Origin: Strigamia acuminata
Taxonomy: Eukaryota; Arthropoda; Chilopoda; Geophilomorpha; Linotaeniidae
Direction of reading: 5' to 3'
Length of the DNA stretch: 64,000 nt
NCBI GenBank assembly: GCA_949358305.1
Contig: OX442319.1
Location: forward strand, 10,416,001-10,480,000
Shown here: piece after piece, positions 1,256 through 50,199 of the stretch
How positions within the stretch are numbered: the stretch's first letter is position 1
How the letters are laid out: the number at the start of each line of letters is the position of its first letter
The notes under the pieces: model-generated
What the model saw: the letters and a program-made list of their open reading frames with translations, nothing else
Told to the model about the DNA's origin: nothing
The model's database searches: none
Program-made: the position numbers and the translations under genes

Positions 1256-4200
1256 TCATTTTCTTACTATACATAAACAATTACGATTATGATAAGTGTT
1301 GAGATGATTGAAATGTGGATTAAGTTCAAAATATATTGATTTAGCCGGAGAAATTTTTACAAACAAATTTAAATTAGAGACGAATTGCACCAATTCATTG
1401 ACGTCTGTGCGTGTTCCTCCAATGAAATTGACAGTGTCCCAATAGGAGCTGCGGAGACCTAGGAGCAAATCGTGTGCATCTGAGTATTTATAACGGGTCC
1501 CAGCATTCTCAATTAAAGTGATTGTTTTTAATTGTGATTTCCCTTTGTTGGCCCATAAATTAGTCATGCGTCTGAATAATTTTGGCATCCCTGATGAAAT
1601 CGCATTTCTAATTATCAGATTGCTAATTGGGAGCGTTTGGATCCAATCAGCTAACTTTTCCACGTCTGTACCCTCTGAAACTATAAATCTTAATGTTTGT
1701 AGGTTAGTAAATGGATTTAGAAATACGAGATCAGGATGTGCCACATCCAACGTTTTCACAGTCTTAAACCCAGTCCATGAGGGATATTTTTGCTTCATAT
1801 TATGAATCGCAGTGAAAGAAAAACAAGTAACCAATGTAGGCTCCGTCTCAACCATTGCTCCAAGACTGGACATTCCCACGTGATAACAACAGTTACGGAG
1901 CAATAAAGGTTTCCTGCAAGTTAAAGTACTTCCACAAAGAGACAGGTATTTCTTACGCCCACCATTAGTAAGATCGTACAAATCAGTAGTACAGCCGAAC
2001 AACTGTAGGTGTTGCAAACGTTCGGATTTAGCAGCAGAGATCGAGAAGTCCGTCATATTTAATTCTTCTGGACGAATAAAGAATCGAAGAATGGAACGAA
2101 AAGTGGATCGATAAAATGATTCCATCTTTAAAAGTATTAACTCAAGGTATTCCACTTGATTATTTCGTAGGAGTTTTATAACAAGTTGTTTGTCGATTTC
2201 GGTTGATATTGTAATTGTTAATTGATGATATTTGATTTTGCTGAACAGTTCGTGCTTTCTTATTAATTGTAGAAATTCCGAACTAGCTTCGTATGTACGG
2301 AATTCCAGGTGGCACGATTCACAATTTGGTGATGCGGCAAAGCGTAAACATTCCTCCAACGGTCCTTGAAACGGAATTCGGATTGAAAACATTTCTCTAA
2401 CTTTACAGACTTTTGAGAAAACTCTGAATTTTGTATAGGGATTTAATTCGAACGTAATTAGCAGACGAGTCCTAATTTCATCCGAAAACACTTCTAATTT
2501 TGTTTCTTTGTCAACTTCAATTAATTTAATTTTCCCGCAATTAATGTCGTATTTTAACATTTCTCTGCATATCTTTTCATTTCTCGGAACGGAGGCTGAT
2601 ATAGAATTAGGAATTAAATTTTTCAGAAGTTTAGAGTTTTGAATATTGATTGGTGAGCATTCTGATAGAAGCATGACAAGCAAATTGCGATAGTAAGTGA
2701 ACCACACATTGTAAGAATCAATGACGGACAACAAGGAATCTAATTCACTCTCCATTAGACTCGCGAGCACTGGCAATATCAGTGACGTTCCACCAGTTTT
2801 CAAGAAATGGTTCATAACCAATTTCAAATTATTTTCCAACAATGCAGATTTGTTCGTATTTATTTCAATCCACAAAGCAAACGCAGCTGCGAATTCGATA
2901 ATAGATAGATGGAAAACTTCGTAATGATTTTTCCTACCATCAAACGTAATCTCTTCACGATTAGAAAGAAAGCCATATTGATAAATGGCATCTGTTAGAT
3001 CATTTCTTTCAAATTTAAAGTCGTTTTCAACTATTTTCCGCAGTGCTAAATTTCCAAACTCTATCATTTCTTTTTGAATACTGTTTAACGATGAGTCTAA
3101 TCGAAATAGGTCAAAATCATCACCCAATTTTTCTCCACGTTTGGTAAAACTTTGCTTCAAAATGAAGTTAAATATTTTTTTGAATAAATCAGTTTTAGTG
3201 GTCCCAATGTCAACGGTTTCACCTCCGCGAATTATAATTGACAGGAGCATGAGAAGTAACGGCGAATTGAATAATTCCCATTCTGACGATAAAGTTTCCA
3301 TTACGACTTCGATAGTATTTTTTGGTACAAATAATTTCTCCAAAAATTTCCTTTTCTTATCCGTGCTCGTAATGCCCATCGTGTAAATTCTCTTGTCGGA
3401 AAAGTCTTCTAGCATTTCGTGAGATCCGAACAATTCCGACCTTTCATCGCCACTCAATCTGAACAGACCCGTTCGACAGAATGCAACCACCGTCACTTCG
3501 CTGTACATTTGGCGGTATAAAATTCTCATGATTTCTCCTCGTTCTTCAGGCTTCAACTCATCTAAGCCGTCGAGTAGAAAAAGGGTTTCTCTTCTGTGGT
3601 TGTTTATAACGGACACGATGTCGTGTGAGTCGCACCATTCTCCTATTTCTTCAATCACTGCTTTGAGGCTGCGTTGTCCTAGGTCTCGTAAATGCACCAG
3701 AAAAGCAAATTTGAAGTTGATGTATTTGCCAGTCGTAGCCCAGTCGTGGGCAAGTTTGATGGCCAGCGTTGTTTTTCCAAACCCCGGCTGACCTTCAATG
3801 AGGATTCGGAGCGGTCGTTCGTCCTTCTCCCAACAGAAAACTTGTTGTATTTTGATTTCTTTCTTCGATTCATTTAGTTCCAGTTGGATGAAATGTTCGT
3901 CAATCAACAACTGTTTCCCTTCCTTTATCCAAGCAACTTTTGGTAAAGCTAATTTGCTGTGAAATGTTTTCAGATTTGTTTGAAAAACATCGCACCGTTT
4001 GTTGCCATCACCATCAGTTGTTTCGCAGCAGGATCTGACTTCATGTTTGTTAGCACCAACTGTACATACAGTAAAATATTTAATTTAGTTACATGTATTT
4101 GTTACAAATTATGTATTTTTGTTTTGAATATTCAAAATAGTAATGCTAACCTTCGGAGTCACGAGTTGGATAAATCTTTGTATTATAAATTGCTACCGGT

Positions 4201-23929: not shown

Positions 23930-24128
23930 CCAAAAGTCCCCCAAGGAAAATTACCAAGGATCCCCCAAGGGAAATTACCAAGGATCCCCCAAGGGAAATT
24001 ACCAAGGATCCCCCAAGGGAAATTACCAAGGATCCCCCAAGGGAAATTATCAAGGGTCCCCCAAGGAAAATTACCAAGAGTCACCCAAGGAAAATTATCA
24101 AGGGTCCCCCAAGGAAAATTATCAAGGG
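23930..24128. repeat. 24-bp minisatellite, about eight units
   Basis: Unit on the plus strand: AAATTACCAAGGATCCCCCA followed by AGGG. Each unit keeps the reading frame open (SLGGSLVI on the minus strand). It abuts the 11-bp array. Confidence 0.93.
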
Positions 24129-24133
24129 AGAAA

Positions 24134-24522
24134 TTTGGGAGAAATTTGGGAGAAATCCGGGAGAAATCCGAGAGAAATCCGGGAGAAATCCGGGAGAAAT
24201 CCGGGAGAAATCCGGGAGAAATCCGGGAGAAATCCGGGAGAAATCCGGGAGAAATCCGGGAGAAATCCGGGAGAAATCCGGGAGAAATCCGGGAGAAATC
24301 CGGGAGAAATCCGGGAGAAATCCGGGAGAAATCCGGGAGAAATCCGGGAGAAATCCGGGAGAAATCCGGGAGAAATCCGGGAGAAATCCGGGAGAAATCC
24401 GGGAGAAATCCGGGAGAAATCCGGGAGAAATCCGGGAGAAATCCGGGAGAAATCCGGGAGAAATCCGGGAGAAATCCGGGAAAAATCCGGGAAAAATCCG
24501 GGAAAAATCCGGGAGAAATCCG
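24134..24522. repeat. 11-bp minisatellite, about 35 units
   Basis: Unit GAGAAATCCGG repeated almost perfectly, with TTTGG variants at the left edge and AAAAATCCGG variants at the right. Because 11 is not a multiple of three and the unit has no stop in any frame, both strands stay open over the array. This creates long spurious ORFs (PGFLPDFSRIS on minus, GEIREKSGRNP on plus). Confidence 0.95.
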
Positions 24523-28413: not shown

Positions 28414-31400
28414 TTACAATTCATCGTCTTCCGATTCCGACATTAACAGATCGTCGACGATGTTGCCGACGCTCGCATCGGCCACCTCCGTTGCCCGCTG
28501 CTGCAAACCTGTGCCGCCATCACCAAATAAAAACGCGGACGGTTCATAATTTTCATCCACGTCAATATTGCTGCCGTCATCCGATGCGGAGCTATTATCC
28601 GGAGTGATCTGCAGATCTGCAACATCGACGTAAACGTTAAAATAAAATCAACACAAAAATTCTAATCCGACTCTTACCTTCGATGAGAACGTTGATCTCG
28701 TCGTCGTGTGACGGGAAGTGCACTTCTGAATTCTCCTCACCTCCGACGTCGATGAAAGCATCGTCGACAACTCCGACGTCGATAAAAGCACCGATGTCGA
28801 TGGAAGAAGCTACGTCGTCGCAAACGATGTCGACGGAAGCTTCGTCGTCACCAACGACGTCGATGGAAGATTCGTCGTCGGTCTCTTGACGCTTGAAAAA
28901 AAAAATCAATAAAAATCAACTTTATGTCATTTTAGATAAAAAATAAATTTTTAAGCACAAAAACAATCGTTTTTAAGCCTAAAAACGGCTCAAAATGCAG
29001 TTTTTAAGCCTAAAAACGGCTCAAAGTGCAGTTTTTAAGCCTAAAAACGGCTCAAAATGCAGTTTTTAAGCCTAAAAACGGCTCAAAATGCAGTTTTTAA
29101 GCTTAAAAACGGCTCAAAATGCAGTTTTTAAGCCTAAAAACGGCTCAAAATGCAGTTTTTAAGCCTAAAAACGGCTCAAAATAAAATTTCCAACACAAAA
29201 CGCGACCTTTACAGTCGCAAAAATACAATTTTCATGCAGAATCTTTCAGTTACCGATTGGCTTTCATCGTCGTTCGTTCCCGTCACGATCGATTCGTTTT
29301 CACCGTCATCGAGAGTCCTTCGGATGCCTCCTTCAAACGCCCGCAATTGTTCGTCAAATTGCACATAAACGGCCGTTTTCGCCACGTCGTATATCTCCTT
29401 CGCCTTGATCGTGATCGCGTGGCCCTTTCCGTTGTACTCGACGCTGCACCGGTGCATCAGGTCAACGTCGTTCAAAAACTCGACTCGGTTGCGATATTTG
29501 TGCGCCTTGATGTTTCTCGTGATCGTTTCGAGGTCCATGGGATGTCGGACGATGTCGTAGTAGTCCTTGACGCGCTTCTTCTCGACGGGGTGGTGGAATG
29601 GACGCGAGTCGGCCACCATTTTGAGCGTCTCGCGCACCAATCGCTCGAGAATGAACGACAGACCCACCTGGTCGTCGTCGTCTAACAGCGGGTTGATGGT
29701 TTTTTCGATGCGCATGAGGTTCGCCTCGTGGTCGGCGAAGCGACGCAAGCAAAGGTCGAGCATCGAGCGCGCGATGACAGTGAGGGGGCTCAGGGCGCCG
29801 TTGTATAAAGTGCTGTTCTCGACCATTTGGTTCACGTCGAACAGGAATTCCTCCCGCGATCGGTAGGTTGTGCGTCTCAAATTGTCGCGCATCGTCTGCA
29901 GGTCCATCGGCCGCGAAACGATGTTATAGTAGTCGGTGACCATTCTGGCGCTGACGGGCGCTAAGAATGGCTGCGTCTGCAAGAAAAATAAAAGCAAAAT
30001 TGTAAGTTTTAGATGAAAAATAGTTGAAAATAGTCATTTTTAGACGTAAAAAGCCTAAAAATGACCATTTTTAGATGAAAAAAAGCCCAAAAATGGTCAT
30101 TTTTAGATGAAAAAAGCCTAAAAATGGTCATTTTTAGATGAAAAAAGCCTAAAAATGGTCATTTTTAGATGAAAAAAGCCTAAAAATGGTCATTTTTAGA
30201 TGAAAAAAGCCTAAAAATGGTCATTTTTAGATGAAAAAAGCCTAAAAATTATCATTTTCCAATGAAAAAGCCTAAAAATGGTCATTTTTAGTTGAAAAAA
30301 GCCTAAAAATGATCATTTTCCAATGATAAAGCCTAAAAATGATCATTTTTAGATGAAAAAAAGCCTAAAAATGGTCATTATTCAATGCGAGGTCGGTTTC
30401 AATGACTTACATTCGGCAGATCCCTCATCTCGTTGAGAATTCCGACGAAAATGGTGGAAAGGTCGTTGACCGGGTCCGTTCTCCTGCGGTTGGCCGATTT
30501 GCGCGGCCGTTTGAGATAATCGCAATCGACCGGCGCCGCTTGCCGCCTCGCCTTCACGACGGGCCGCTTGGGGAACTTGAGCACGAGCGACTTGCGCCTC
30601 AACTCGTCCGCGCGCATCACCAGCTGCTTGGAGACGACCAACTTGGTCCCCTCCACCTTCACCAGATCCCCCGCTTCCTCCTCCACCTCCTCCGTCACGG
30701 CCACCGACGCGGGCGGAATCAGCGACTGACTGCTCCCGTCGTACGCCGGACAGCTCCTATTCGTGCGCATGTGTCCCACTCCCCCGCACGCGCCGCACCG
30801 AAGCTTCAGCTCGGGTTTCTCCTTGCGCGTCCGCTTGGTGGACGGCGGTGCCGGGCAGAGACGATCGCGCGCCTCGTTCCTGCGCAGACGTCGCAGTTGT
30901 TCCTGAATCCGCCGGATCTCCTTGCGCATTTCCTCCTTCTGCTGCTCGTTCGGCGCCAAAAAGTGTTGCCTGAAACGCGAAAAATCGATTAATTCGTGGA
31001 TTAAATGTGAAGAAATATTTTTTTTTTACAAGACGGCGGGGTCCGTGGCGGTCTTGACGCGCAGGTAGGTGTCGATGACGGAGGGTGTGCGAATCGTTTC
31101 GTTTCGGACGTATTCTTGGCCGTCCGGGCTGCGAAACGTGCGGTAGATTTTGAGGGTGCGGTTGCTTTGGGGGACGGCAGCAGCGGATTTGTTGGTTTTT
31201 TTTGGGAGGGGTTTTGATGTGGGATCTTTGGGGTCCTCCATCAACATCTTGTGGAGTTCGAGACGTTCGATTTCTTCGAGTTCGTACGATAATTGGGCAG
31301 TGGTTGTTCGCTCGGCTATTAGGTCGTCGATGTTTTTGGCCATGGCTTCCACCTCCATGTCGTCGTCGGAGCTGCAGCTGATTTCGGAGGGAAGTGTTTC

Positions 31401-34400
31401 GTTGGAACCCAAAATTCTAATAAAAATACAAATTTTAAAGGTTTTAATGTCATTTTCAAATCGAAATATTCAGTTTTACATGCATAATTGCAGTTTTTCG
31501 TGCCATTGATGCATTTTTTACAAGAATTAATGCATATTTTAGATAAAAAATAAACTAAAGCACTTTTTCGACCTAAAAAAGCACTTTTTTTGACCTAAAA
31601 AAGCACTTTTTCGACCAAAAAACACATTTTTCGACCTGAAAAAGCACTTTTTCGACCAAAAAACACATTTTTCGACCTAAAAAAGCACTTTTTCGACCTA
31701 AAAACGCATTTTTCGACCAAAAAAAGCACTTTTTCGACCTAAAAACGCATTTTTCGACCTAAAAAAGTACTTTTTCGACCTAAAAACGCACATTTTCGAC
31801 CTAAAAATATTCTCTTATACCTGTTCTGTAAATCGAATAATCGTTGACATTCCTCTTTGTATTTTTCTTGCTGTTCCACAAAGCTGGATCGATTTTTGCG
31901 CACGAATTTACTCAGGGCGACTCCTCCGTCCTTTGCCTGCTGTATCGACAGTGTCCGTACCGCATCGATTATCTCCCACCGAGACAATGTCCTGATCTGA
32001 GAATTAAAATTTATTTAAATCCCAATACACAAAAAAGCAAACGAAAATGAATTTCTACTTGTTCGTCCCCGATCCCGTATTTCTTGAGTAAACATTTGGC
32101 GTTGTTCAACGACAGCTTCCGTAGATCCGCGTCCGTGCCGGTCACTATCTTCTTGGCCGCCCGTTTGGCATCGACTTCCTCCTGAGAAAAGTATTTATTT
32201 AGTTGTTTTATTATTATTAGGTTTGATTAATTTTTACTTTGGTCGGTTTGTGGGCTACGCGGACGTAGGCAAATCCCTCGCCGCATCCGGTGGGGTCGCA
32301 AACACCCGTCAGCTGCATTGTGCATTTGTTGTTCATCGCGTCTATGAAGGCTCGCGTTGTGTTCCAGGGAGCGGCGTTCACTTCGTCGTCCATTTTCACT
32401 TGCAGCTCTACTTCGTCGTCGTCGTTGTTGTCGAGCGAAAACAACGTTTTTGCTCCGTATCCGGCATCCTAAATTAATTATTAATTAATTATTTTAATAT
32501 TTTATACAAAATTGTTCATGCTTTCATCAAATTATGCAATTTTGATCAAATTATGCAATTTTTTATCAAATTATGCAATTTTTTATCAAATTATGCAATT
32601 TTTTTATCAAATTATGCAATTTTGTAAACAAATTGTGCAATTTTTTGACCAAATTATGCAAGTTTCAACCAAATTATTCAATTTTTTAACAAAATTATGC
32701 AATTTTTTGACCAAATTATGCAAGTTTCAAACAAATTATGCAATTTTTTAACGAAATTATGCAATTTTTGACCAAATTATGCAAGTTTCAACCAAATTAT
32801 GCAATTTTTTAACGAAATTATACGATTTTTCATCTCAAAATTCATTTTTTAAAATCAAATTATGGAATATTTTGACCAAACTATTCATTTCGTGGTCAAA
32901 CAACATTAAATTTTGTTCGTACCTTTAATCTCTGCTGTGCAGCCACCATGCTGTAGTAACCGCAACACTGCTCCGGGCTGACCATCTCTCGAATCTCATC
33001 TTCCGTCGGTAGACGAAAGTTCGGTCTAAGCACCCACCAATTCGAGTCCATTCCCGTACGTTTAAATTCCGCGCACGCTTTCAACCGCTTCCGAATCGAA
33101 CTCTCCGAATGCGCCGGAAATGCCTTTCGAATGTCCTCCATCTTGATCCGCCGAGGAACGTCCTCGCTTTTCCAAAACAACCGATAGATATAAACCTACC
33201 AAAAAAAAACAAAAATAAAACAAAAAAACAAAACAAACAAAATCAAATCAATCACTCACTTGAAGAAAATTCCGAACAAACTCGACGGCCCTCTTCGAAT
33301 TGGGGCCCGGAACTTCGTGCAACGGACACAACTGACCCACCGTAAAACTGCTATCGACCGTTCGGATGAAATAACTGTAAAATAAAAACAAAAACATAAA
33401 TTAAACAACGTTCTAACGTTGCTAATGGACGAGTCGTGTACCGTTGGCGCGTTCTCACAATCAAAAAGTCGAAATCCGACATCGGCTGCTCGTAAATCGG
33501 CGACCGGAACAAATTATTCTCGAAAGCCTGCAACGATTGACCGGGCGCGAGCGATCCCAGAAACGGGGCAGTGTGAGCAAAGGCCGTCTCGCCGTAGCGG
33601 TATTCCGGGACGGATTGTTCTTTTCCCGGTTTCTAGAATAAGTCGAATTAAATTAGATGAATTGATTGATTAAATAGGAGAAGGAAGGGTTTTTTTATTA
33701 CTCTTTTGTAGTAGTTCTTGATTTTGGTTGCCATTCCGACTTGCATGACCAAAGGCGGGTGCTGCTCGCAATATTCGGCCAGGATAAGTTCGCCGTCGCA
33801 GCCGGTTAGGTCCTCGGTGGTGCGCATGAAAAACATTTCTCCACCACCACAAGCTTGTCTTTCCTGCTCTCGCGCCTGAAAAAAAATATAATTTTTTTAA
33901 ATAATAGGCCTAATATATTTCAAATAATTTAAACAAAAGTACTGTTAAAAATACCGTATTTCATATAGTTTACATGAAATTACTGTTAAAAATACTGTAT
34001 TTCACATAATTTTCACGAAAATACTGTTGAAAATACCGTATTTCGCATAATTTAAATGAAAATACTGTTAAAAATACCGTATTTCGCATAATTTAAATGA
34101 AAATACTGTTGAAAATACTGTATTTCACATAATTTTCACGAAAATACTGTTAAAAATACCGTATTTCACATAATTTAAATGAAAATACTGTTGAAAATAC
34201 CGTATTTCACATAATTTTAACGAAAATACTGTTAAAAATACCGTATTTCACATAGTTTACATGAAATTACTGTTAAAAATACTGTATTTTACATAATTTT
34301 CACGAAAATACTGTTGAAAATACCGTATTTCGCATAATTTTCACGAAAATACTGTTGAAAATACCGTATTTCACATAACTTAAATGAAAATACTGTTGAA

Positions 34401-37400
34401 AATACCGTATTTCACATAATTTTAACGAAAATACTGTTAAAAATACCGTATTTCACATAGTTTACATGAAATTACTGTTAAAAATACTGTATTTCACATA
34501 ATTTTCACGAAAATACTGTTGAAAATACCGTATTTCACATAATTTTAACGTAAACTGTATACAAAATACCGTATTTCACATAATTTTAACGTAAACTGTA
34601 TACAAAATACCGTATATCACATAATTTTAACGCAAATTATATTTAAAATACCGTATTTCCCACAATTTCAACAAAAGTTTACATAATATACAATATTTCA
34701 CAATGTTAACTATAATACTATTAAAAATACCGTATTCCACACAACTTTAACGATAAATTCCGTATTTCACATAATTAATAATTAAACCGAAATTTAATTT
34801 TTCCAAACTCTGCCCTACCTTTGCTTTTTTCCTGATCATCTTCCTGAGCGGATACACCTTGTGAAACACCGGCAGCGTCACGTCTCCGTGCGAATACTTC
34901 TTGACCGGCTGGCGGTGGAAACTTCTCAACTTGGCCATCCCCAAGTGAGTAGGAAAGAAGGGAGCGCGCAACTCGATCGCGGGTGTCGAATGCTGGATGC
35001 CCTTCATCCCCATCATGTGCAACGCATCAACGTTCGTCATTTTCGAATTGTAATCTTCGTCGTTCGAGATATTATAAATACTCTTCGCAACCGTCGGTTC
35101 CGGGTCGGATTCCGGCTCTTCTGTCGCTGTCTCGGGGAAGATTTTCGACTTTCGGGCCGCGTTTTTCTTCTCCTTGCTCGGCCGTTCTGGCGAAATCGGC
35201 CGGGCGTTGGGGTCGGTGTCGTTCAGGGGCCCGAGAACGACGTTCTCGTCGTTCGGATCCAAAGTGAAGTCTTTCGGCGTGGGAATTCGATCCATGGACT
35301 TGAAAAAAATGAATTAAAATTAGAAAAATGTAATTTAATTTAATGTTTTTTTTTTTTTTTTTACTTCGGCGTCCCAGATTACGTCGTTTTCCCAATTGCC
35401 GTACACTAAATCTTCGTTTTCTACCGGAAATATCGAATACCACGTGTCGTTTGGGGGTTTGGTGGTGGAATTTGTTGGTGTTTGGGTCGTTTTAGCTGTG
35501 GGAAAGAGTTTTTATTAATACGATGAGTGTTTGGTTGTTGGATTTGGTTTATTACCGTGTAGACTGAATCCGAGGAGTGTTCTGTTTGAGTTGTTCGGTT
35601 TGAGGGGCCATCCTGTGTTGTTGTCTTTGCTGTTTAATTTCGCCATGACCTTTGGATAAAATTTGATTGGATTAATTTCTATCGATTTTGATGAATTTCA
35701 GTGAAAAAATTGGAGTTTTCCTCAATAATTGGCATTTTTTTTCGCTTAAAAGTGTGATTTTTAGACGGATAAGTGAATTTCTGCATATAAAAACGTCAAT
35801 TTTGCATATTTTAACATGAAAAATGCATAATTTAACATAAAAAATGGATAAATTAACAAAAAATGCATAAATTAACAAAAAATGCAAAAATTGACATAAA
35901 AACTGCAAAAATTGACACAAGAAATGCAAAATTTGACACAGAAAATGCAAAATTTGACACAAAAAATGCAAAATTTGACACAAAAAATGCAAAATTTGAC
36001 ACAAAAAATGCAAAATTTGACACAAAAAATGCAAAATTTGACACAAAAAATGCAAAATTTGACATAAAAAATGCAAAAATTGACACGAAAAATGTATAAT
36101 TTCACATTAAAAATGCATTTTCGACTCGCAAAATGCAGTTTTTACACGCAAAATGCCTTTGTGACACGAAACTACATTTTTTGACAAAGAAAAAATCACA
36201 TTTTCGTCGTTGATAAATCACTTTTAAGTGTATAATTGTAGAACTTTATACTTTTTCCTTGATATCTGCGGCTTCCCAAACGACGTCATCCTCCCACGAC
36301 AACTGATTCACCATTTGATAACAATCTTCGGGAATTTCATCGACGTATTCGTCATTTTCTTCGTCTTCAACCTGAAAAAAAAATATCAATAAAAATTGTA
36401 ATTTTTCTCTCCGTTTTTGATCAATTTCACATACATCTTTCAATTTGAAACCGTAATCGAACCCGTCTCCAGAGTCCGGTACGTCCAGCATGTCGTACCA
36501 AAACTTTGCCGGACCGTGCCGCCATCCGTTAACTTTTACCGCATCGTCGACAGAAATTTCCAACCTTTCAGCTATTTTAGTCTTTCTGTCTTCATCCAAC
36601 ATTTCCACGAATTTATCCTAAAAGAAAACAAAAACAAATTTTAGTTTGGATTTTTAAAATGGCGTTAAAATGCAAACAAACCATTTCATCCGGTTGACAC
36701 TCATCTGGTGTTGGGTCAGGTTGGAGTGTTAAATCTAAACCAGTTCTTGATTTCCGTTCGGGAATTGCGGGTAGTGTGCTCCGCTTTCTTTTCTTGACTC
36801 CCCGCCAAAAGTTGGAGCAATTCACTCGTGTATTTTGGAACAAACGATTACATCGAAGCGGCTAAATCACAAAATAAAAAAGTTAATTATCTAGTGGTAG
36901 TCACGAATAAATGCATTTTGCACATACAAATGCAATTTGTGAACCTAAAAATGCATTTTTGCAGGTTAGATATCCAATTGTGCATGTAAAAATGCATTTT
37001 TGGTGTTAATATAAGCATTTTTTTTAAAGTAATGCAATTTTGCAGCTTAAAAATGTGTTTTTGCAGCTTAAAAATGTGTTTTTGCAGCTTAAAAATGTGT
37101 TTTTGCAGCTTAAAAATGTGTTTTTGCAGCTTAAAAATGTGTTTTTGCAGCTTAAAAATGTGTTTTTGCAGCTTAAAAATGTGTCTTTGCAGCTTAAAAA
37201 TGTGTTTTTGCAGCTTAAAAATGTGTTTTTGCAGCTTAAAAATTGTTTTTGAAATTAAAAATGTGTTTTTGCAGCTTAAAAATTGTTTTTGAAATTAAAA
37301 ACGCATTTCTGCACCAAAAAATAAATTTTTTTCAATAAAATCAATGTTTTTTTGCACAATAAATTCGGTTTTCAACATAAAACTTCATATTTGTTCATAA

Positions 37401-38195
37401 AAAAAGCATTTATGCACACTAAAACGCATTTTTCGATTTAGTAATGCATTTTATTCGGCGTAAATTATTTTTTTTACATATAAAAACCATTTTTTTCACC
37501 TACACAAACACATTTTTAATATTTTCCAATAACATTCAATCGGAAAACCCATTCAATATTCACCTGGTTGTGTAAAAACCCCGGAAATAACTTCTCGAGG
37601 TCCGCATTATCGTATTTACTAGACACGCACATCGCACCTGCTAAAGGTCTTTTCACGACACTATCCAACTTAACCGCCAAATTCAAAGCATTTAGCGGCA
37701 ATCCTTCAACGCTCTCGACCTCATTCTCTTCGTCATCGCCGTCGTAATCCTCCGAATCATCTTAAAAATTTAAATAACAAAATTTAACGTAACATTTTAA
37801 ATATTTTTATAGTAATTCGATTAATACCCGACGTTAGTGGAGCCAGTTTCGACAGCATTTCTGCAATTTCATCGCCCGCTATCTGCTGAATTTCGGGAAT
37901 TTCGGAATTTTCTTCTTCGGTTATTTGGCTTAAATCGGAGCCGAGATTTGTGACTTTGCTCAATTCGCCCAAATGCATTTTTGTTTCCTAAGGAAGAGAT
38001 AAATTAATTTTTTATATATTTATTAATAATTCGTTTAGTGGAATTTACTTCGTCGAATAAATCGTCCTCAAGTTGGCCCGATCGATCGATGTTTCCAAAT
38101 AGAAAGGAAGACAAGAACGAAGCTTGTTGGTGTTGATCGGTTCCTTCGTTGTCGCTGTCCATATTTTGATCGCTTCTTTCGTTGTCGCTGTCCAT
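28414..38195 (-). CDS. TAF1: TAF1, largest subunit of TFIID (21 exons, complete)
   Basis: TAF1 scaffolds TFIID, binds promoter DNA with TAF7 and reads acetylated histones. Exons (minus): 38195-38049, 37987-37828, 37760-37564, 36861-36682, 36617-36435, 36371-36252, 35649-35556, 35495-35365, 35298-34819, 33875-33702, 33632-33442, 33374-33260, 33195-32923, 32468-32238, 32181-32059, 31996-31821, 31416-31030, 30969-30411, 29976-29254, 28891-28678, 28616-28414. All junctions are GT-AG and in phase, giving 1,686 residues, slightly shorter than vertebrate TAF1. Landmarks: N-terminal [25 protein letters not shown] and [28 protein letters not shown], the winged-helix [20 protein letters not shown], zinc knuckle [17 protein letters not shown], tandem bromodomains in exons 18-19 ([32 protein letters not shown]), and an acidic tail. 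The first 22 residues are a duplicated 11-residue unit. Confidence 0.97.
28936..29185. repeat. TAF1 intron array, 31-bp unit, about seven copies
   Basis: Unit AAGCCTAAAAACGGCTCAAA then ATGCAGTTTTT. It fills the intron between exons 19 and 20. Confidence 0.92.
30015..30390. repeat. TAF1 intron array, 31-bp unit, about eleven copies
   Basis: Unit GATGAAAAAAGCCTAAAAAT then GGTCATTTTTA, with small length changes (GAAAA to GAAAAAA). It fills the intron between exons 18 and 19. Confidence 0.92.
31545..31808. repeat. TAF1 intron array, 21-bp unit, about twelve copies
   Basis: Unit CCTAAAAAAGCACTTTTTCG then A, with CCAAAAAACACATTTTTCGA variants. It occupies the intron between exons 16 and 17. Confidence 0.92.
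32512..32900. repeat. TAF1 intron array, about 21-bp unit, about fifteen copies
   Basis: Unit ATCAAATTATGCAATTTTTT and variants with GACC or AACC spacers and AAGTTT. It occupies the intron between exons 13 and 14. Confidence 0.9.
33925..34765. repeat. TAF1 intron array, 41-bp unit, about seventeen copies
   Basis: Unit GAAAATACTGTTGAAAATAC then CGTATTTCACATAATTTTAAC. Variants alternate CACGAAA, AACGAAA and AAATGAAA joints, suggesting higher-order units. It fills the longest intron, between exons 9 and 10. Confidence 0.92.
35800..36190. repeat. TAF1 intron array, 21-bp unit, about thirteen copies
   Basis: Core unit AAAAAATGCAAAATTTGACA then C (about 35870-36080), with diverged copies on both sides. 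It occupies the intron between exons 6 and 7. Being a multiple of three, it opens long spurious frames on both strands. Confidence 0.92.
36895..37500. repeat. TAF1 intron array, 21-bp unit, about eleven clean copies
   Basis: Core unit TTAAAAATGTGTTTTTGCAG then C (about 37040-37280), with decayed related units out to 37500. It occupies the intron between exons 3 and 4. Confidence 0.92.
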
Positions 38196-44632: not shown

Positions 44633-47600
44633 TCATCCAAAGAGGCGTCGACAAAAGTGGGACATTTTAACTCGATCGTAAGCCTTTGTAAACCCATCGG
44701 CAAAATTAAGCTTTGTACCGACGTGGGCAAGTATTACTTCCCCACCCCTAACCAGATTGCGGATCCAATGGAACCGTACGTCTATGTGTTTGGTTCTTCT
44801 CTTTTCGACTGCATTTCGAGAGAAGTCGACTGCCGATTGATTATCGCAATAGACGACGAACGAGAAATCAAACGCAATAAATTGGCATAGCTCAAACATT
44901 ATGCGCTTAATGAATAGGAAGTCCTTAATTGACTCTGTTAATGCCACATATTCGGACTCCATTGAAGAGAGTGTCACACATTTCTGCTTAAAGGTCCTCC
45001 AAAATATTGGAACGGATGATAACACTAAAATCGTTCCCCCAATCGAGGTTCTATCGTCGCGATTGTTCGCATAATCAGAATCCGTAAAGACCTCCAAAAA
45101 CAAGTCAGCGCCCCGTGAGAGCTTCATACAGTAATCACGAGTGAGGAATAGGTATCCAAGCATCCTCACGAGTCCATTCCAATGCACAATACCAGGATCC
45201 GACTGGAATTGACTAAAGATGTTAGTTGCGTATGACAAGTCAGGGCGAGTTCTCGTGGACAAGAAAGAGAAGCAACCCAAGAGACTCCGATACGGGTATT
45301 TCAGCATATCAGTGCGTTCACCTTCAGTCTTGGGAGAGTCAGCTCGCGACATCAACGTCCCCACAGCAATCGGCAATCCAGCCTTGCTAGGCAGAAACAT
45401 CTTGAATTTCTCCAGAATAGCCCCAATATAACCCCTCTGGTGCATCACAAAACCACAGTCTGTTTGTTCAAACTCAATTCCAAGCATCTTCCTTACAGGT
45501 CCCAAATTCACCAGGTCAAACTTTTCGGCAATGATTGAAGATGCCAAACTAATGTCCCTATTCGTAATGCCAAAAATAATAATGTCATCCACATACACGA
45601 TTAAGATGGTACGACATTTCAGTCGATAGACACAATTGCACCATAATAAGGGCTCAAAACCTCTGGACTTCAGGTAAGCGTCAAACTCATCATTCCAAGC
45701 CCTTCCAGACTGATGAAGCCCGTACAGGGCACGTTTCAAGAGGCAAACGAGGTGTTCTTTCCCCTTGGTGACAAATCCCTTAGGTTGACGGATGTAGACC
45801 GTCTCCTTAAGCTTGGCATACAAGTAGGCACTTTTAACATCAAATTGGCAATGTACCCAACTTAAAGTACAAACCAACAGGACAAACAGCAAGCGAATCA
45901 CACTAAAGTCAACGACGGGCGAGAAAACATCATCGTAGGTATCTCCATAAATCTGATTGAAACCTTGGGCAACAAATCTGGCCTTGAAGCGGGCGATCTT
46001 CCCATCAACGTCACGCTTCAACGCATACACCCAGCGAGAGCCCAGAACCTTCACTCCTGGCGGTAATTCCGTGAGGTCCCAGACATCACGGGCCCTCAAA
46101 ATCGAAATCTCGTCACTCATCGCTCCCCTCCAGTCCTCAGAATTCTCCGAATTCACGGCAGATTCATAAGATCCAGGGACCCCAGCCTCCATGGTGAATA
46201 ATTCCTCGCCACCCCAAGCCAAATCATCCCAAGAGTCGGAGCGGGTCAATTCCACGGTTTCCACGCATTCACCGGGCACTGAGTTCAGCCAGCCCGTAAA
46301 CGGGTTGAGTGTCGAGTATACAAATAAAGATGCATCGTACATAAGGCCGGAATCCCGGCAGAAAGCAATCACATCATTCTCCGATTTACACTGTCTAGAA
46401 TTCTGGGAGAGTCCAAAATAGATATTATATCCCCTCAAATCCTTTCTCGGGACGGCCGTTCTAAACCACTCTACATCACGGCACGATCTCATCTTGCTAG
46501 CGTTACTTCTTGTTTCTCTAACTGAAGTCATCTTCGAGGATCCAGAGACCACCGGTGATCTCACGGCCCCAATTAATGGGAGATCCTCCACTTCACGTCC
46601 TCCACTGCTCACCACGGGCGTCAGAGGGTGGACCAAAACCCTCAAGGGTCTAAGTGGCGATTCAATCCCCGGGATTTCCTGAGTTTCAACCTTGTCCATT
46701 AATCTTTCCTCATGTTCATCCAGTTTCGGAGCTTTGACCTCATCCTCATGTTTGTCCAATTCTCCATCCGGTCCATTCAAGCCCAAAATCGGGTCCTCGT
46801 CATAATAATCGTCCTCTGGTTCCTCAACAAAATCAACAGTCTTCGGGGTCAGAGTAATCTCCGGGTCCAGCACGCAAACACTGCCGATCTTCTGTTCGTC
46901 GAACACCACATTGGATGTGTCCCAAATAACTCTTTCCCCCGGTATGAAAACACGATATCCAATCGTTTTTGACGAGTAGCCAACCATAATTCCAGCTTTA
47001 GCTCGGTTGTCCAATTTGGACGTCTTTGCTGCAATCTTCGCATAAACTAAGCACCCAAAAGTTCTAAGATGTTTCACATTAGGCTTTGTACCATAAATTA
47101 ATTCATACGGGGTCTTATCACTGTCTCTTCGAGATATTCTATTTATGGTATAGCACACAGTGTGGGCTGCCTCTTCCCAGAAATCATTCTCCAAGCCAGC
47201 ATAGTCCAAACAACATCGAATTCCATTCATCAGGGTAAGATTAAATCTCTCAGCCACCCCATTCATTTGAGGCGTATAAATGTTAGTCCTCTCGTGTCGA
47301 ATACCCTGGGATTCGCAAATCGCAGAAAACTTCCGGTTACAGTATTCGAGGCCATTGTCACTCCTCACAGCCATAATTTTATATCCAGTTTGACGTTCCA
47401 TCCTTGCCTGATAAACCTTAAAATGATCAACTACCTCGCTCTTACTCTTCATTCCTATCACCGTCCGGTAACGCGAAAAATCATCCGTAAAAGTCACGAA
47501 ATAGATAAATCCAGTTCTTGATGGTATACTCAAGGGTCCACATACATCCGTGTGTACAAGCTGAAGTGGCTTACTCGATCTCGGTCCCGGTATGGATTTA

Positions 47601-49462
47601 TATGATCTCGACCTCGCTTTCGCCAAGGAACAGGCATCACAGCGATCCGGCTTGCCGGCCAACAATGGCATCCCAATGACACAATCAATCTTTGATGTCC
47701 TTTTAACGTCGTCCTGATTATAATGACAGTATCGAAGGTGCCACAGCAAAACCTGATCCGGGTCATCCTTAATATGACGGGTAGGAACCTCCACATGATC
47801 AATCTTCAAGTCCATCAACCGATCACTTTCCAATTTATCCTCACTCGTAACCAAAGCATAATTGCGTATTCTCTCATTTAGATCCGGAATCTGAGTGTCA
47901 TTCAATCCCGGGTCTTCTCGAACGTTCGGAACAATATGGTACAATCCACCAATTTGGTCCTTAACTCCAACCATAATGACTCTAGACCAATCCGGGGTAA
48001 AAATATAAACCTTGCCACCAGTCCCCACGAAATGGCAACCCAAGTCATCCAAACGCGGGCCAGATACAAGGTTTCTTCGGATTCCAGGTGCATAGATAAC
48101 CCGATTAAAAGTGACCCGATTCAGTCGGCCACCAGAAGAACGGTCCAAAAACGCAGTCGAACCCATCCCCATTATGGGCGTCTCCTGTTGACTCCCTGCA
48201 GATTTAATACTGTCCCCCTTTGTCTCAATAAACTTAGTAAACAAATTCCGATTCCGACAAATATGACTCGTAGCTCCAGTATCGAAAACCCAATCGTCAG
48301 ATCTAGTCTCAAACCCCCCGCTAAGGGCTTCAGTCAAAAGTCCATATTCAGCACAACCAGGATCCTCAGCGAGGGACAACATGGGAGTCGTCTTCTTCTC
48401 CTCCAGGATTTCAACGGCTGTAGATGGAACCACCTCATCCTCATACACATAAACCACCTCCGTACAATCCCTTGCCATATGGCCCGGCTTCTGGCATCGA
48501 TAACACGGCCCCCCAAATGTAGGTCGCCCATCGACTGTCCCCCGGCCGCCAAATGAAGATCCAACCATTCCCGGTCTTCTTCGGTAAATTGTCCGAGGTA
48601 ATCGCTGTACACCGCGTTGATTCGATGTAATAACCGTCCCTCCTCGAGCTACATTCCTATAGAAACGTCCACCTCCCATGGCTACTTGTCCCTGACCAAA
48701 AAGACTTTCATCGTTCCTCACCACATCTCCCGGTCGCTGTGACTGTAGCACAGGCATCTGTGAGTAATCGGGAACCGCAACGTAGTCATACCCAAACTCG
48801 TCCTGAAGATACACATTTCTATCCTCACTAGCGGCAAACACTCCAGCAGAATTAAACGACCCATTGTCGGATTGAAGCTGCTTTAATCTGCCCTCTTCCG
48901 AAATGAGCTCCTTTTCAGCCTCATTCAGGGTAAACTTATCTTTCGGCCCCCTATGGATGGACAATACAACAGGCTGAAACTCTGCCGGTAAGTTTCGAAT
49001 CAACTGGTAACAAATAAAAATCTCTGAGATCACTTCACCCAGCTCTGTCAACTTCTTCTGCACCACACGGATCCGTTGCGCGAAAAGACGTATTGTTTCG
49101 CCCGGCTTAATCCTCAAGGCTGCCAATTCATCATATAGAGCACATATTCGTGAATGTGACACCGGCTCAAAATGCGCCAAAAGGGCATCCCAAGCCACCT
49201 TGCCATCTCTGGTATGTGAAATATGCGGTCTTAACTCTGCTCCTATTGACTTGTAAATAGTGGAGTAGGCCTGAGCTTTGCGCTGTTGATAACGCTCAGT
49301 GGCACGCAAATCAGTAACTGGAGGCACTCCAGGTGGGGTTTCAGTCAAAAAGCTCCAACAATTCCTGTCCATTAATGAAACCTCAATTTCCTCCTTCCAT
49401 TGAGCAAAATTGTCCCATGACAATATGACCGTTCCAGTCCGATTATTCCCCTCCTCGGTCAT
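44633..49462 (-). CDS. Copia gag-pol polyprotein, intact
   Basis: A 1,609-residue polyprotein carrying out the full copia cycle. Order: Gag (residues 1-310, UBN2-like, WDALLAHFEP), zinc knuckle CYRCQKPGHMARDC (320-333), aspartic protease DTGA (394-397), integrase zinc region LWHLRYCHYNQ to CDACSLAK (about 573-615), integrase core with Asp 639 (HTDV), Asp 702 (RSDNGLEY) and Glu 738 (GVAERFN), reverse transcriptase (about 1130-1370) with YVDD, and RNase H with DSDYANNRDD, SSMESEYVAL and CDNQSAVDF. Every catalytic residue I can identify is present and there is no stop or frameshift. The start at 49462 precedes the first Gag helix. The leader between 5' LTR and ATG is about 900 bases. Confidence 0.96.
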   Translation of the reverse strand: MTEEGNNRTGTVILSWDNFAQWKEEIEVSLMDRNCWSFLTETPPGVPPVTDLRATERYQQRKAQAYSTIYKSIGAELRPHISHTRDGKVAWDALLAHFEPVSHSRICALYDELAALRIKPGETIRLFAQRIRVVQKKLTELGEVISEIFICYQLIRNLPAEFQPVVLSIHRGPKDKFTLNEAEKELISEEGRLKQLQSDNGSFNSAGVFAASEDRNVYLQDEFGYDYVAVPDYSQMPVLQSQRPGDVVRNDESLFGQGQVAMGGGRFYRNVARGGTVITSNQRGVQRLPRTIYRRRPGMVGSSFGGRGTVDGRPTFGGPCYRCQKPGHMARDCTEVVYVYEDEVVPSTAVEILEEKKTTPMLSLAEDPGCAEYGLLTEALSGGFETRSDDWVFDTGATSHICRNRNLFTKFIETKGDSIKSAGSQQETPIMGMGSTAFLDRSSGGRLNRVTFNRVIYAPGIRRNLVSGPRLDDLGCHFVGTGGKVYIFTPDWSRVIMVGVKDQIGGLYHIVPNVREDPGLNDTQIPDLNERIRNYALVTSEDKLESDRLMDLKIDHVEVPTRHIKDDPDQVLLWHLRYCHYNQDDVKRTSKIDCVIGMPLLAGKPDRCDACSLAKARSRSYKSIPGPRSSKPLQLVHTDVCGPLSIPSRTGFIYFVTFTDDFSRYRTVIGMKSKSEVVDHFKVYQARMERQTGYKIMAVRSDNGLEYCNRKFSAICESQGIRHERTNIYTPQMNGVAERFNLTLMNGIRCCLDYAGLENDFWEEAAHTVCYTINRISRRDSDKTPYELIYGTKPNVKHLRTFGCLVYAKIAAKTSKLDNRAKAGIMVGYSSKTIGYRVFIPGERVIWDTSNVVFDEQKIGSVCVLDPEITLTPKTVDFVEEPEDDYYDEDPILGLNGPDGELDKHEDEVKAPKLDEHEERLMDKVETQEIPGIESPLRPLRVLVHPLTPVVSSGGREVEDLPLIGAVRSPVVSGSSKMTSVRETRSNASKMRSCRDVEWFRTAVPRKDLRGYNIYFGLSQNSRQCKSENDVIAFCRDSGLMYDASLFVYSTLNPFTGWLNSVPGECVETVELTRSDSWDDLAWGGEELFTMEAGVPGSYESAVNSENSEDWRGAMSDEISILRARDVWDLTELPPGVKVLGSRWVYALKRDVDGKIARFKARFVAQGFNQIYGDTYDDVFSPVVDFSVIRLLFVLLVCTLSWVHCQFDVKSAYLYAKLKETVYIRQPKGFVTKGKEHLVCLLKRALYGLHQSGRAWNDEFDAYLKSRGFEPLLWCNCVYRLKCRTILIVYVDDIIIFGITNRDISLASSIIAEKFDLVNLGPVRKMLGIEFEQTDCGFVMHQRGYIGAILEKFKMFLPSKAGLPIAVGTLMSRADSPKTEGERTDMLKYPYRSLLGCFSFLSTRTRPDLSYATNIFSQFQSDPGIVHWNGLVRMLGYLFLTRDYCMKLSRGADLFLEVFTDSDYANNRDDRTSIGGTILVLSSVPIFWRTFKQKCVTLSSMESEYVALTESIKDFLFIKRIMFELCQFIAFDFSFVVYCDNQSAVDFSRNAVEKRRTKHIDVRFHWIRNLVRGGEVILAHVGTKLNFADGFTKAYDRVKMSHFCRRLFG

Positions 49463-50199
49463 GTTTGATATCGTTTCACCAAATCAAAATCGCACACACT
49501 CCAAGGGATAATCGCACACTGATAATCTTGCCAGTAAAAACTGAACAAGAGCACGTACACCCACACCAAGTGCAATGTGTAGGGGTTAGTAACGCTTTGA
49601 TAAATGGTCAGTATCACTTTTGACAAAATAAAAAAAATTCAAAAATTCAAGCAAATAAATAAGCAAAAATGTTGATGTTGCGTCCGTGGACGTTGATGCA
49701 TTCACAGGATGGCTTCTAGGAAATGTCCAAATTCCAGGCGAATCATTGTCCACAACACAGTTCAGGTCCAAAATTCCAAAACACAAAGTCCTCAGAATGT
49801 CAGGAAAAACAGCCACACAATCCACTCTAAACCTACTAAATCATACAAAGAAAATAAACAAATAAATTCTCAAATTGTCAAATTCCACAAACAAATTCTC
49901 AAATTTTCAAAATAAATAAATTCCCAAAAAAAACAATAAATTTCTCCACAAAAAAAACTTTTAAACCACACAATCCAATCAAAGTCCACCACGATGTATT
50001 CTCTCGTTCTCAAGTTCTCCACTATCAAATCCCAGATGTACCGCAAGCAGGGAGCGCCATTTTCGAAATACAGTTGTCACAAAACGAGTATCGGTTGGCA
50101 TAACATCGCTGGCTCGCAATAACACGTCGAAAATAGAAATTCTTCACCTCTCGTCGCACAAAAACACCATTAAACATTTACTCACAGTTTTAGTTACTC

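Follow-up and report, generated by a model that had tools for sequence, protein, structure and literature searches.

Helix-phased A/T-tract arrays in the long introns of the TAF1 gene of the centipede Strigamia acuminata

Why should the seven long introns of one gene each carry a tandem repeat, with units of just 21, 31 or 41 bp? The question is raised by TAF1, a gene for a basic transcription factor, in the centipede Strigamia acuminata. It lies within a stretch of 64,000 nucleotides, here called the window (C8:10416001-10480000; contig OX442319.1 of assembly GCA_949358305.1), and the question was followed from there into the whole genome (237,517,015 bases in 157 contigs). The mitochondrial contig of this genome, 15,068 bases long, contains a COX1 gene that found its best match, at 85% identity, in the geophilomorph centipede Mecistocephalus marmoratus. 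In an earlier note, made from the letters of the window, it was proposed that every long intron of TAF1 is a private tandem array with a unit of 10n+1 bp, and that its A-tracts are in phase with the DNA helix. We have found this observation to be partly confirmed, with two corrections, as the units are whole helical turns instead of 10n+1 bp and six of the seven arrays are not private. The structural account, in which the tracts are placed on the helix, the units are whole turns and the arrays change in size by nearly whole units, is fairly well supported. The explanation that we prefer holds that helix-phased A/T-tract DNA was multiplied in register and, with less certainty, that it was retained for the sake of chromatin shape; we place it just short of an even chance.

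Phased tracts in the long introns of TAF1

The gene was modelled on the minus strand by a splice-aware dynamic programme, and its intron limits come from that model rather than from cDNA. The open reading frame of 1686 amino acids runs from 38195 to 28414 and is interrupted by 20 GT-AG introns. Pieces of the protein matched the Pfam entries DUF3591 (the TAF1 core domain), zf-CCHC_6 (a zinc knuckle) and Bromodomain, and the named best homologues of the gene were TAF1 proteins from arthropods and other animals. Thirteen introns (1, 2, 4, 5, 7, 8, 10, 11, 12, 14, 15, 17 and 20) measure 56-69 bp and the other seven 362-943 bp, which bears out the sizes first read from the sequence. In alignments to seven homologues the long-intron junctions that were covered left net gaps of at most three residues; the junction of intron 18 was covered by four of the seven homologues and that of intron 19 by two, making intron 19 the least supported.

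According to Tandem Repeats Finder (TRF), the arrays in introns 19, 18, 16, 13, 9, 6 and 3 have units of 31, 31, 21 (or 41), 21, 41, 21 and 21 bp, respectively (Table 1). Thus, each of the seven long introns does hold an array with the units first described, but the claim that the arrays fill the introns went too far, since they cover 36, 60, 89, 79, 62, 88 and 59% of introns 3, 6, 9, 13, 16, 18 and 19. As in other minisatellites, the copies stand head to tail, the units are longer than 10 bp and each array has 6-21 copies by TRF; core memory was found in all seven (z 11-29). The units are not of one fixed length, as the spacing of repeated 7-mers revealed that introns 13 and 16 alternate steps of 20 and 21 bp, with 41 bp as the dimer, and that the unit of intron 18 fluctuates between 30, 31 and 32 bp.

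To measure phasing, we took the midpoint of every run of four or more A or T and the distances between these midpoints. Since the z values of such a scan assume independent pairs, the observed values were set against shuffles that keep every run intact. Intron 6 had a best tract period of 10.5 bp and the other six long introns one of 10.3 bp. The pooled z for the seven introns was 42.7 at 10.3 bp, individual values ranged from 7.2 to 23.2, and in no intron did any of 1000 run-shuffles reach the observed value. Helical phasing, which had been marked as an inference, is therefore supported in all seven introns. Units of 21, 31 and 41 bp hold two, three and four tracts, with the exception of intron 6, where there are three runs of which two adjoin; unit length can thus be written as the number of tracts times the helical spacing. 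No 10-bp sub-repeats were found inside the TAF1 units, core identity at lags of 10 and 11 being at or near background. Curvature as predicted with wedge parameters came to 28-49 degrees per 21 bp in the seven arrays against 21-24 degrees in their run-shuffled versions, so that the curved DNA once thought possible is predicted for every array, but not for one of the flanks considered below.

It might be asked whether the arrays serve splicing, either by making the introns longer or by offering repeated binding sites for splicing factors. All seven arrays are intronic and no short intron is of array size. Furthermore, when the units were compared in 21 pairs and both orientations (200 run-shuffles each, with a forward null only), 7 of the 42 comparisons had words in common at P<0.05 where about two were expected, the strongest similarity being that of intron 6 to the reverse complement of intron 13, which none of 200 shuffles equalled. 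Such similarity may, but need not, reflect a shared origin of the seven units. Nonetheless, the main feature common to the arrays is the helical period of DNA in runs of A and of T, on either strand, which factors that bind RNA would not be expected to read, and we consider a role in splicing very improbable.

Phasing was also sought in the flanks of the arrays. The 1153 bp of TAF1 flanks that lie outside the arrays at default TRF settings were phased at z 13.9, the highest value among 300 dinucleotide shuffles being 4.0. In the flank of intron 3 phasing had a z of 10.4 and core memory a z of 0.6, and core memory was 1.2 and 2.8 in the flanks of introns 6 and 16. The flanks were first read as clearly non-tandem, a reading later weakened by laxer repeat masking. 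For phase in the absence of a tandem repeat there is good support in one TAF1 flank and weak support elsewhere.

Table 1. Positions in the window of the TAF1 gene, its long introns and the arrays they hold
Feature	Positions	Strand	Content
TAF1 gene	28414..38195	-	gene model with 21 exons, 20 introns, 1686 aa; Pfam; TAF1 homologues
Short intron 1 (61 bp)	37988..38048	-	gene model; example of the 13 short introns
Intron 3 (702 bp)	36862..37563	-	21-bp array 37038-37291, 12.2 copies (TRF)
Intron 3 flank	37292-37563	-	phased, without tandem core memory
Intron 6 (602 bp)	35650..36251	-	21-bp array 35819-36117, 14.4 copies; 20-bp array 36110-36180
Intron 9 (943 bp)	33876..34818	-	41-bp array 33916-34758, 20.6 copies, four tracts per unit
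Intron 13 (454 bp)	32469..32922	-	20/21-bp array 32528-32884, 17.4 copies
Intron 16 (404 bp)	31417..31820	-	21-bp (41-bp dimer) array 31557-31807
Intron 18 (434 bp)	29977..30410	-	31-bp array 29996-30379, 12.4 copies, three tracts per unit
Intron 19 (362 bp)	28892..29253	-	31-bp array 28969-29182, 6.9 copies, three tracts per unit

Unit lengths and phased arrays in the wider genome

Twenty stretches of 10 kb, at fixed positions on contigs C1, C4 and C5 (200 kb), served as a random sample, and a further set came from gene-family loci, including four Piwi loci picked to span gaps between exons; neither set was selected for its arrays. The pooled arrays had a minimum AT content of 0.65, a minimum length of 50 bp, no fewer than 2.5 copies and units of 15-65 bp, and identical units entered once. 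Of the 21 arrays in the random stretches, 16 had a unit no more than 1 bp away from a multiple of 10 (z 3.56 at 10.3 bp, a value that none of 2000 jittered sets attained; P 0.002 with periods of 7-15 scanned). The gene-family loci gave 7 of 10 units near a multiple of 10 (P 0.004 at 10.3 bp and 0.08 when scanned over 7-15), and the two sets combined 23 of 31 AT-rich arrays within the same 1 bp (z 4.35 at 10.3 bp, again unmatched by any of 2000 jittered sets). When the copy-number filter was lifted, the random set grew to 30 arrays and its z was 3.2. No clustering was seen among the 10 AT-poorer arrays of the random sample (z -1.2), and no comb was found in 19 chance arrays, with units of 17-29 bp, which TRF reported from five shuffles of the 200 kb. 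The unit lengths of most AT-rich arrays in the sampled genome form a comb at whole helical turns, and the clustering beyond TAF1 that the earlier note had put forward as a check is indeed present.

The comb also bears on the suggestion that a strict 10n+1 rule acts on each intron separately. The TRF units of the seven TAF1 arrays are all 21, 31 or 41 bp, as that rule would have it. Outside TAF1, however, 9 of the 31 units are of the 10n kind and 10 of the 10n+1 kind, arrays of 20 and 30 bp contradict the rule, introns 13 and 16 of TAF1 itself mix 20 with 21 bp, and the intron of an Argonaute gene described below has units of 20 bp. The strict rule was ruled out by the wider sample, and we leave it hardly any probability. 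Since 10n is as common as 10n+1, it is better replaced by whole multiples of approximately 10.2-10.3 bp. A genome-wide distribution with no peaks at 10n+1 is not what the sample yielded; the peaks occur, but in a comb set by whole turns instead of by 10n+1.

Another possibility is that these are ordinary minisatellites and that the common unit lengths in TAF1 are a post hoc coincidence. Seven arrays are few. Moreover, a survey of tandem repeats in 12 genomes gave maxima at 11, 5, 12, 21-24, 30-36, 39, 43, 45 and 46 bp for Drosophila, with a dense 31-bp class in Drosophila introns, at 10, 12, 17 and 24 bp for Daphnia and at 10, 12, 26 and 36 bp for Apis (PMC3152781). On the other hand, the period of 10.3 bp taken from TAF1 predicts the unit lengths of the random sample, to which the gene-family loci alone add weaker evidence, and the chance arrays of shuffled DNA lack the comb, leaving coincidence with a very small chance.

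The background phasing of the genome is weak, with a best period of 10.4 bp (z 10.4) in the 200 kb and of 10.5 bp (z 6.6) once arrays are masked. Segments phased at a z of at least 8 made up 1425 bp of the 200 kb and none of the run-shuffled DNA, while at z 6 the figures were 2425 and 825 bp and at z 5 they were 3950 and 3200 bp.

Phased arrays were also met in or beside other genes. Nine loci related to the intron 18 array (L002-L010) were examined, and the Pfam matches above the cut-off beside or around their phased arrays were to a SID-1 channel (L005) and an importin/exportin-type gene (L008); matches below the cut-off were to a Vps8-type RING (L006) and a spectrin-type repeat (L003), with phased arrays in or beside the exons. 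Modelled introns in L002, L003, L006 and L009 had phasing z values of 8.9-20.4. In the Argonaute gene, an array of 20-bp units with two A-tracts per unit lies between two Piwi-domain exons. Two myosin-tail genes may be cited as anecdotes: the one at C11:9.69-9.70 Mb had no phased segment, and the one at C11:4.14-4.16 Mb had arrays with units of 30, 31, 30 and 41 bp, and also of 11, 23, 80 and 113 bp, with one phased segment. Labels such as dynactin-like, nesprin-like, exportin-6-like, liprin-like and muscle or non-muscle myosin are tentative readings of fragments; the two dynactin-like pieces gave no match in Pfam. At L012 (about 1501-1683) a COX1 fragment, probably a nuclear mitochondrial insert, was found between 31-bp arrays beside a protein kinase gene.

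Dispersal, turnover and possible retention

The genome was searched with each TAF1 array, at most 40 candidates per search being scored. At first look the candidates numbered 345 for intron 3, 284 for intron 13, 267 for intron 18, 258 for intron 6, 194 for intron 16 and 9 for intron 19, and the search with the array of intron 9 returned its own place only. Among the matches listed, related arrays were approximately 65-91% identical. Of the seven arrays once called private, then, intron 9 alone matched nothing but itself and the description fails for the other six.

Such relatives would be expected of neutral minisatellite families that arose a few times and were carried by transposable elements or duplications, in which case the period would be an inherited memory and in-register slippage would require no selection. 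This is a serious rival, and we grant it a considerable probability, only a little smaller than that of the explanation we prefer. In addition to the relatives of six of the seven arrays, L009 and L010 are 93% identical over 321 bp that include a 30-bp array and its flanks, a common segment that looks like a mobile element. In C1:50656287-50717447 the intron 18 array is matched at 13 places with a spacing of about 5.08 kb, and in C1:53619788-53724396 the intron 3 array at 7 places, for the most part 13.15 kb from one another; both are tandem blocks whose units contain related arrays. The weak phase outside the arrays at other loci points the same way, as does the dispersal of a TAF1 fragment with its arrays. 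What neutral families explain less readily is that the array of intron 9 has no relative, that the same period is found in arrays with different cores, and that the flank of intron 3 is phased without core memory.

The dispersed TAF1 fragment allows the turnover of the arrays to be followed. At four loci (L047, L048, L049 and C12:592634-592985) a match to the end of intron 6 adjoins one to the start of intron 3, and C12:8850985-8851122 matches the intron 3 part alone. The copy in L047 continues from intron 6 through 15 bp of exon 6, after which intron 3 follows directly; exons 4 and 5 and what remains of exon 6 are missing. L048 and L049 have the same junction; the copies have a common internal deletion and a common right boundary. 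The identical junction suggests that a TAF1 fragment was captured, lost its middle and then spread, and it seems that a repeat family captured part of the TAF1 gene. Outside the arrays the copies are 93-94% identical to TAF1, with L048 and L049 exactly alike. Measured between fixed anchor words, the array of intron 6 is 276 bp long in TAF1, whereas L047, L048 and L049 have 86, 68 and 69 bp; for the array of intron 3 the lengths are 258 bp in TAF1 and 30, 28 and 29 bp in the copies. The difference between TAF1 and L047 is 190 bp for intron 6 and 228 bp for intron 3, or about 9 and about 11 units, and that between L047 and L048 is 18 bp, a little under one unit. The arrays thus change in size fast and by nearly whole units, as minisatellites do. 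From the near identity of the TAF1 units, we infer that the TAF1 arrays grew rather than that the captured copies shrank.

The explanation that we prefer, multiplication in register, would start from a base pattern of one A- or T-tract per helix turn of approximately 10.3 bp. Duplications and deletions, whether by slippage or by unequal exchange, would succeed when the tracts are in register, and such events would leave a unit of two, three or four turns while the bases between the tracts drift. The phased tracts might then be retained because the curvature or nucleosome behaviour that they impart gives a suitable chromatin shape to genes that need to be active, including in the germ line; of this last step we are less certain.

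If tracts are retained, they might be expected to vary less than the cores, and a substitution test was made on 28 array rows of six or more copies, in which one array is represented twice (L037 and L042). Variant types per A/T site were fewer in tracts (95 of 339) than in cores (93 of 215). In the comparison of TAF1 with its dispersed copies, 3 of 22 differences fell in TAF1 tracts where about 6 were expected, but these numbers are too small for a verdict, and as L048 and L049 are identical in the compared block just two independent copies were compared.

A number of results weigh against the preferred reading. Row by row, variation was lower in tracts in 17 of the 28, with 10 reversed and one tied, and among the TAF1 arrays alone it was lower in three and reversed in four, so that the test is mixed. 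The selection for nucleosome or splicing reasons that had been suggested for these arrays is a conjecture. The flank of intron 3 is strongly phased, yet its predicted curvature is not above that of shuffles (in the flank of intron 6 it is slightly so, z 2.3). Laxer TRF masking leaves 488 bp of TAF1 intron outside the arrays, phased at z 5.3, a value reached by 1 of 500 shuffles. The remainder near arrays at nine other loci is not phased at runs of at least four (z 1.8; shuffles had a mean of 1.7 and a maximum of 3.9); at runs of three it has a modest z of 3.75, a figure without shuffle control, and the remainder in eight modelled or inspected introns elsewhere gave at best z 2.2 at runs of four and 4.5 at runs of three. 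Beside the phased introns of L006 and L009 lie unphased ones of 324 and 385 bp, respectively, and no phased segment was present in three of the four Piwi-family loci examined. In the random sample the best of 25 model introns with a length of 150 bp or more had a z of 4.3 (in L013), short of z 5, although these gene models are crude and many of them transposon-like, and so a poor guide to introns. Finally, the Drosophila maxima and intronic 31-bp class cited above imply that unit lengths of this kind are not unique (PMC3152781).

Some other features of the window may be recorded. An 11-bp unit is repeated 36 times with a 98% match at 24126-24522, open in several frames, and it adjoins a 24-bp unit with 8 copies at 23937-24127. 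On the minus strand a long open reading frame with a NACHT domain occupies 1256-4084, and a frame of 1616 amino acids at 44633-49483 resembles, by eye, a Copia-type polyprotein. Single-exon frames on both strands between 9128 and 54199 appear by eye to form an expanded family of similar proteins of approximately 350-470 amino acids; the two compared with Pfam gave no match.

Comparison with PATC DNA and other repeats

The closest known parallel is the DNA of the periodic An/Tn clusters (PATCs) of Caenorhabditis, whose founding papers are reportedly those of Fire in 2006 and of Frokjaer-Jensen in 2016. PATCs are not known to be tandem for the most part, and their signature is not known to depend on tandem duplication. 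In C. elegans they make up 6-10% of the genome and, when intronic, protect germline transgenes from silencing (PMC7725773, PMC9071541). According to a review, they correlate with expression in the germ line, and outside Caenorhabditis eukaryotes seem for the most part to lack them (PMC6468775). Like PATCs, the phased DNA of the centipede has runs of A or T at about one per helical turn, is intronic and non-coding, and occurs in some genes but not in others. The clustering of A/T runs at a period of about 10 bp was found in seven of seven long introns, by a tract scan rather than by the published PATC algorithm, and the intronic position holds for the seven TAF1 arrays and the Argonaute array, the others lying in modelled introns or beside exons. 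Unlike PATCs, the centipede tracts form tandem arrays, and they do so in an arthropod. About 1% of the random sample was phased at z 6, against the 6-10% that PATCs occupy in C. elegans by another algorithm (PMC7725773).

Since structure and location agree with PATCs and a germline role is drawn by analogy only, we liken these arrays to PATC DNA in tandem form and do not class them as PATCs. By this analogy a PATC-like role in chromatin is plausible. A bolder proposal is that centipedes, independently of Caenorhabditis, evolved a PATC-like intron code in which phased tracts mark certain genes as self, keep them active in the germ line and are renewed by in-register duplication while the sequence turns over; this we regard as improbable. 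A search at the level of titles and the beginnings of abstracts found no paper on helix-phased repeat arrays in centipede introns, which is weak evidence of absence.

The arrays may also be compared with the intronic minisatellites of arthropods, with which they have in common a tandem, AT-rich structure, a variable copy number and size changes of nearly whole units, and from which they differ in that the unit lengths cluster at whole helical turns. Like A-tract phased DNA that is curved or positions nucleosomes (PMC3372288), they have A-tracts at approximately 10-10.5 bp and predicted curvature, but the phasing in the centipede is much stronger, is local and has been amplified in tandem.

Should the phase persist through the turnover of sequence and copy number, selection would be acting on a physical property of the DNA and not on its letters, and the length of the repeat unit would be a readable trace of the helix. 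If instead the arrays are neutral, helix-phased tracts may quantise slippage, and some of the unit sizes of minisatellites would thereby be explained. PATCs have been described as largely restricted to Caenorhabditis and their mechanism is unclear, and for learning the role of such DNA a second, unrelated lineage with similar introns would offer a comparison.

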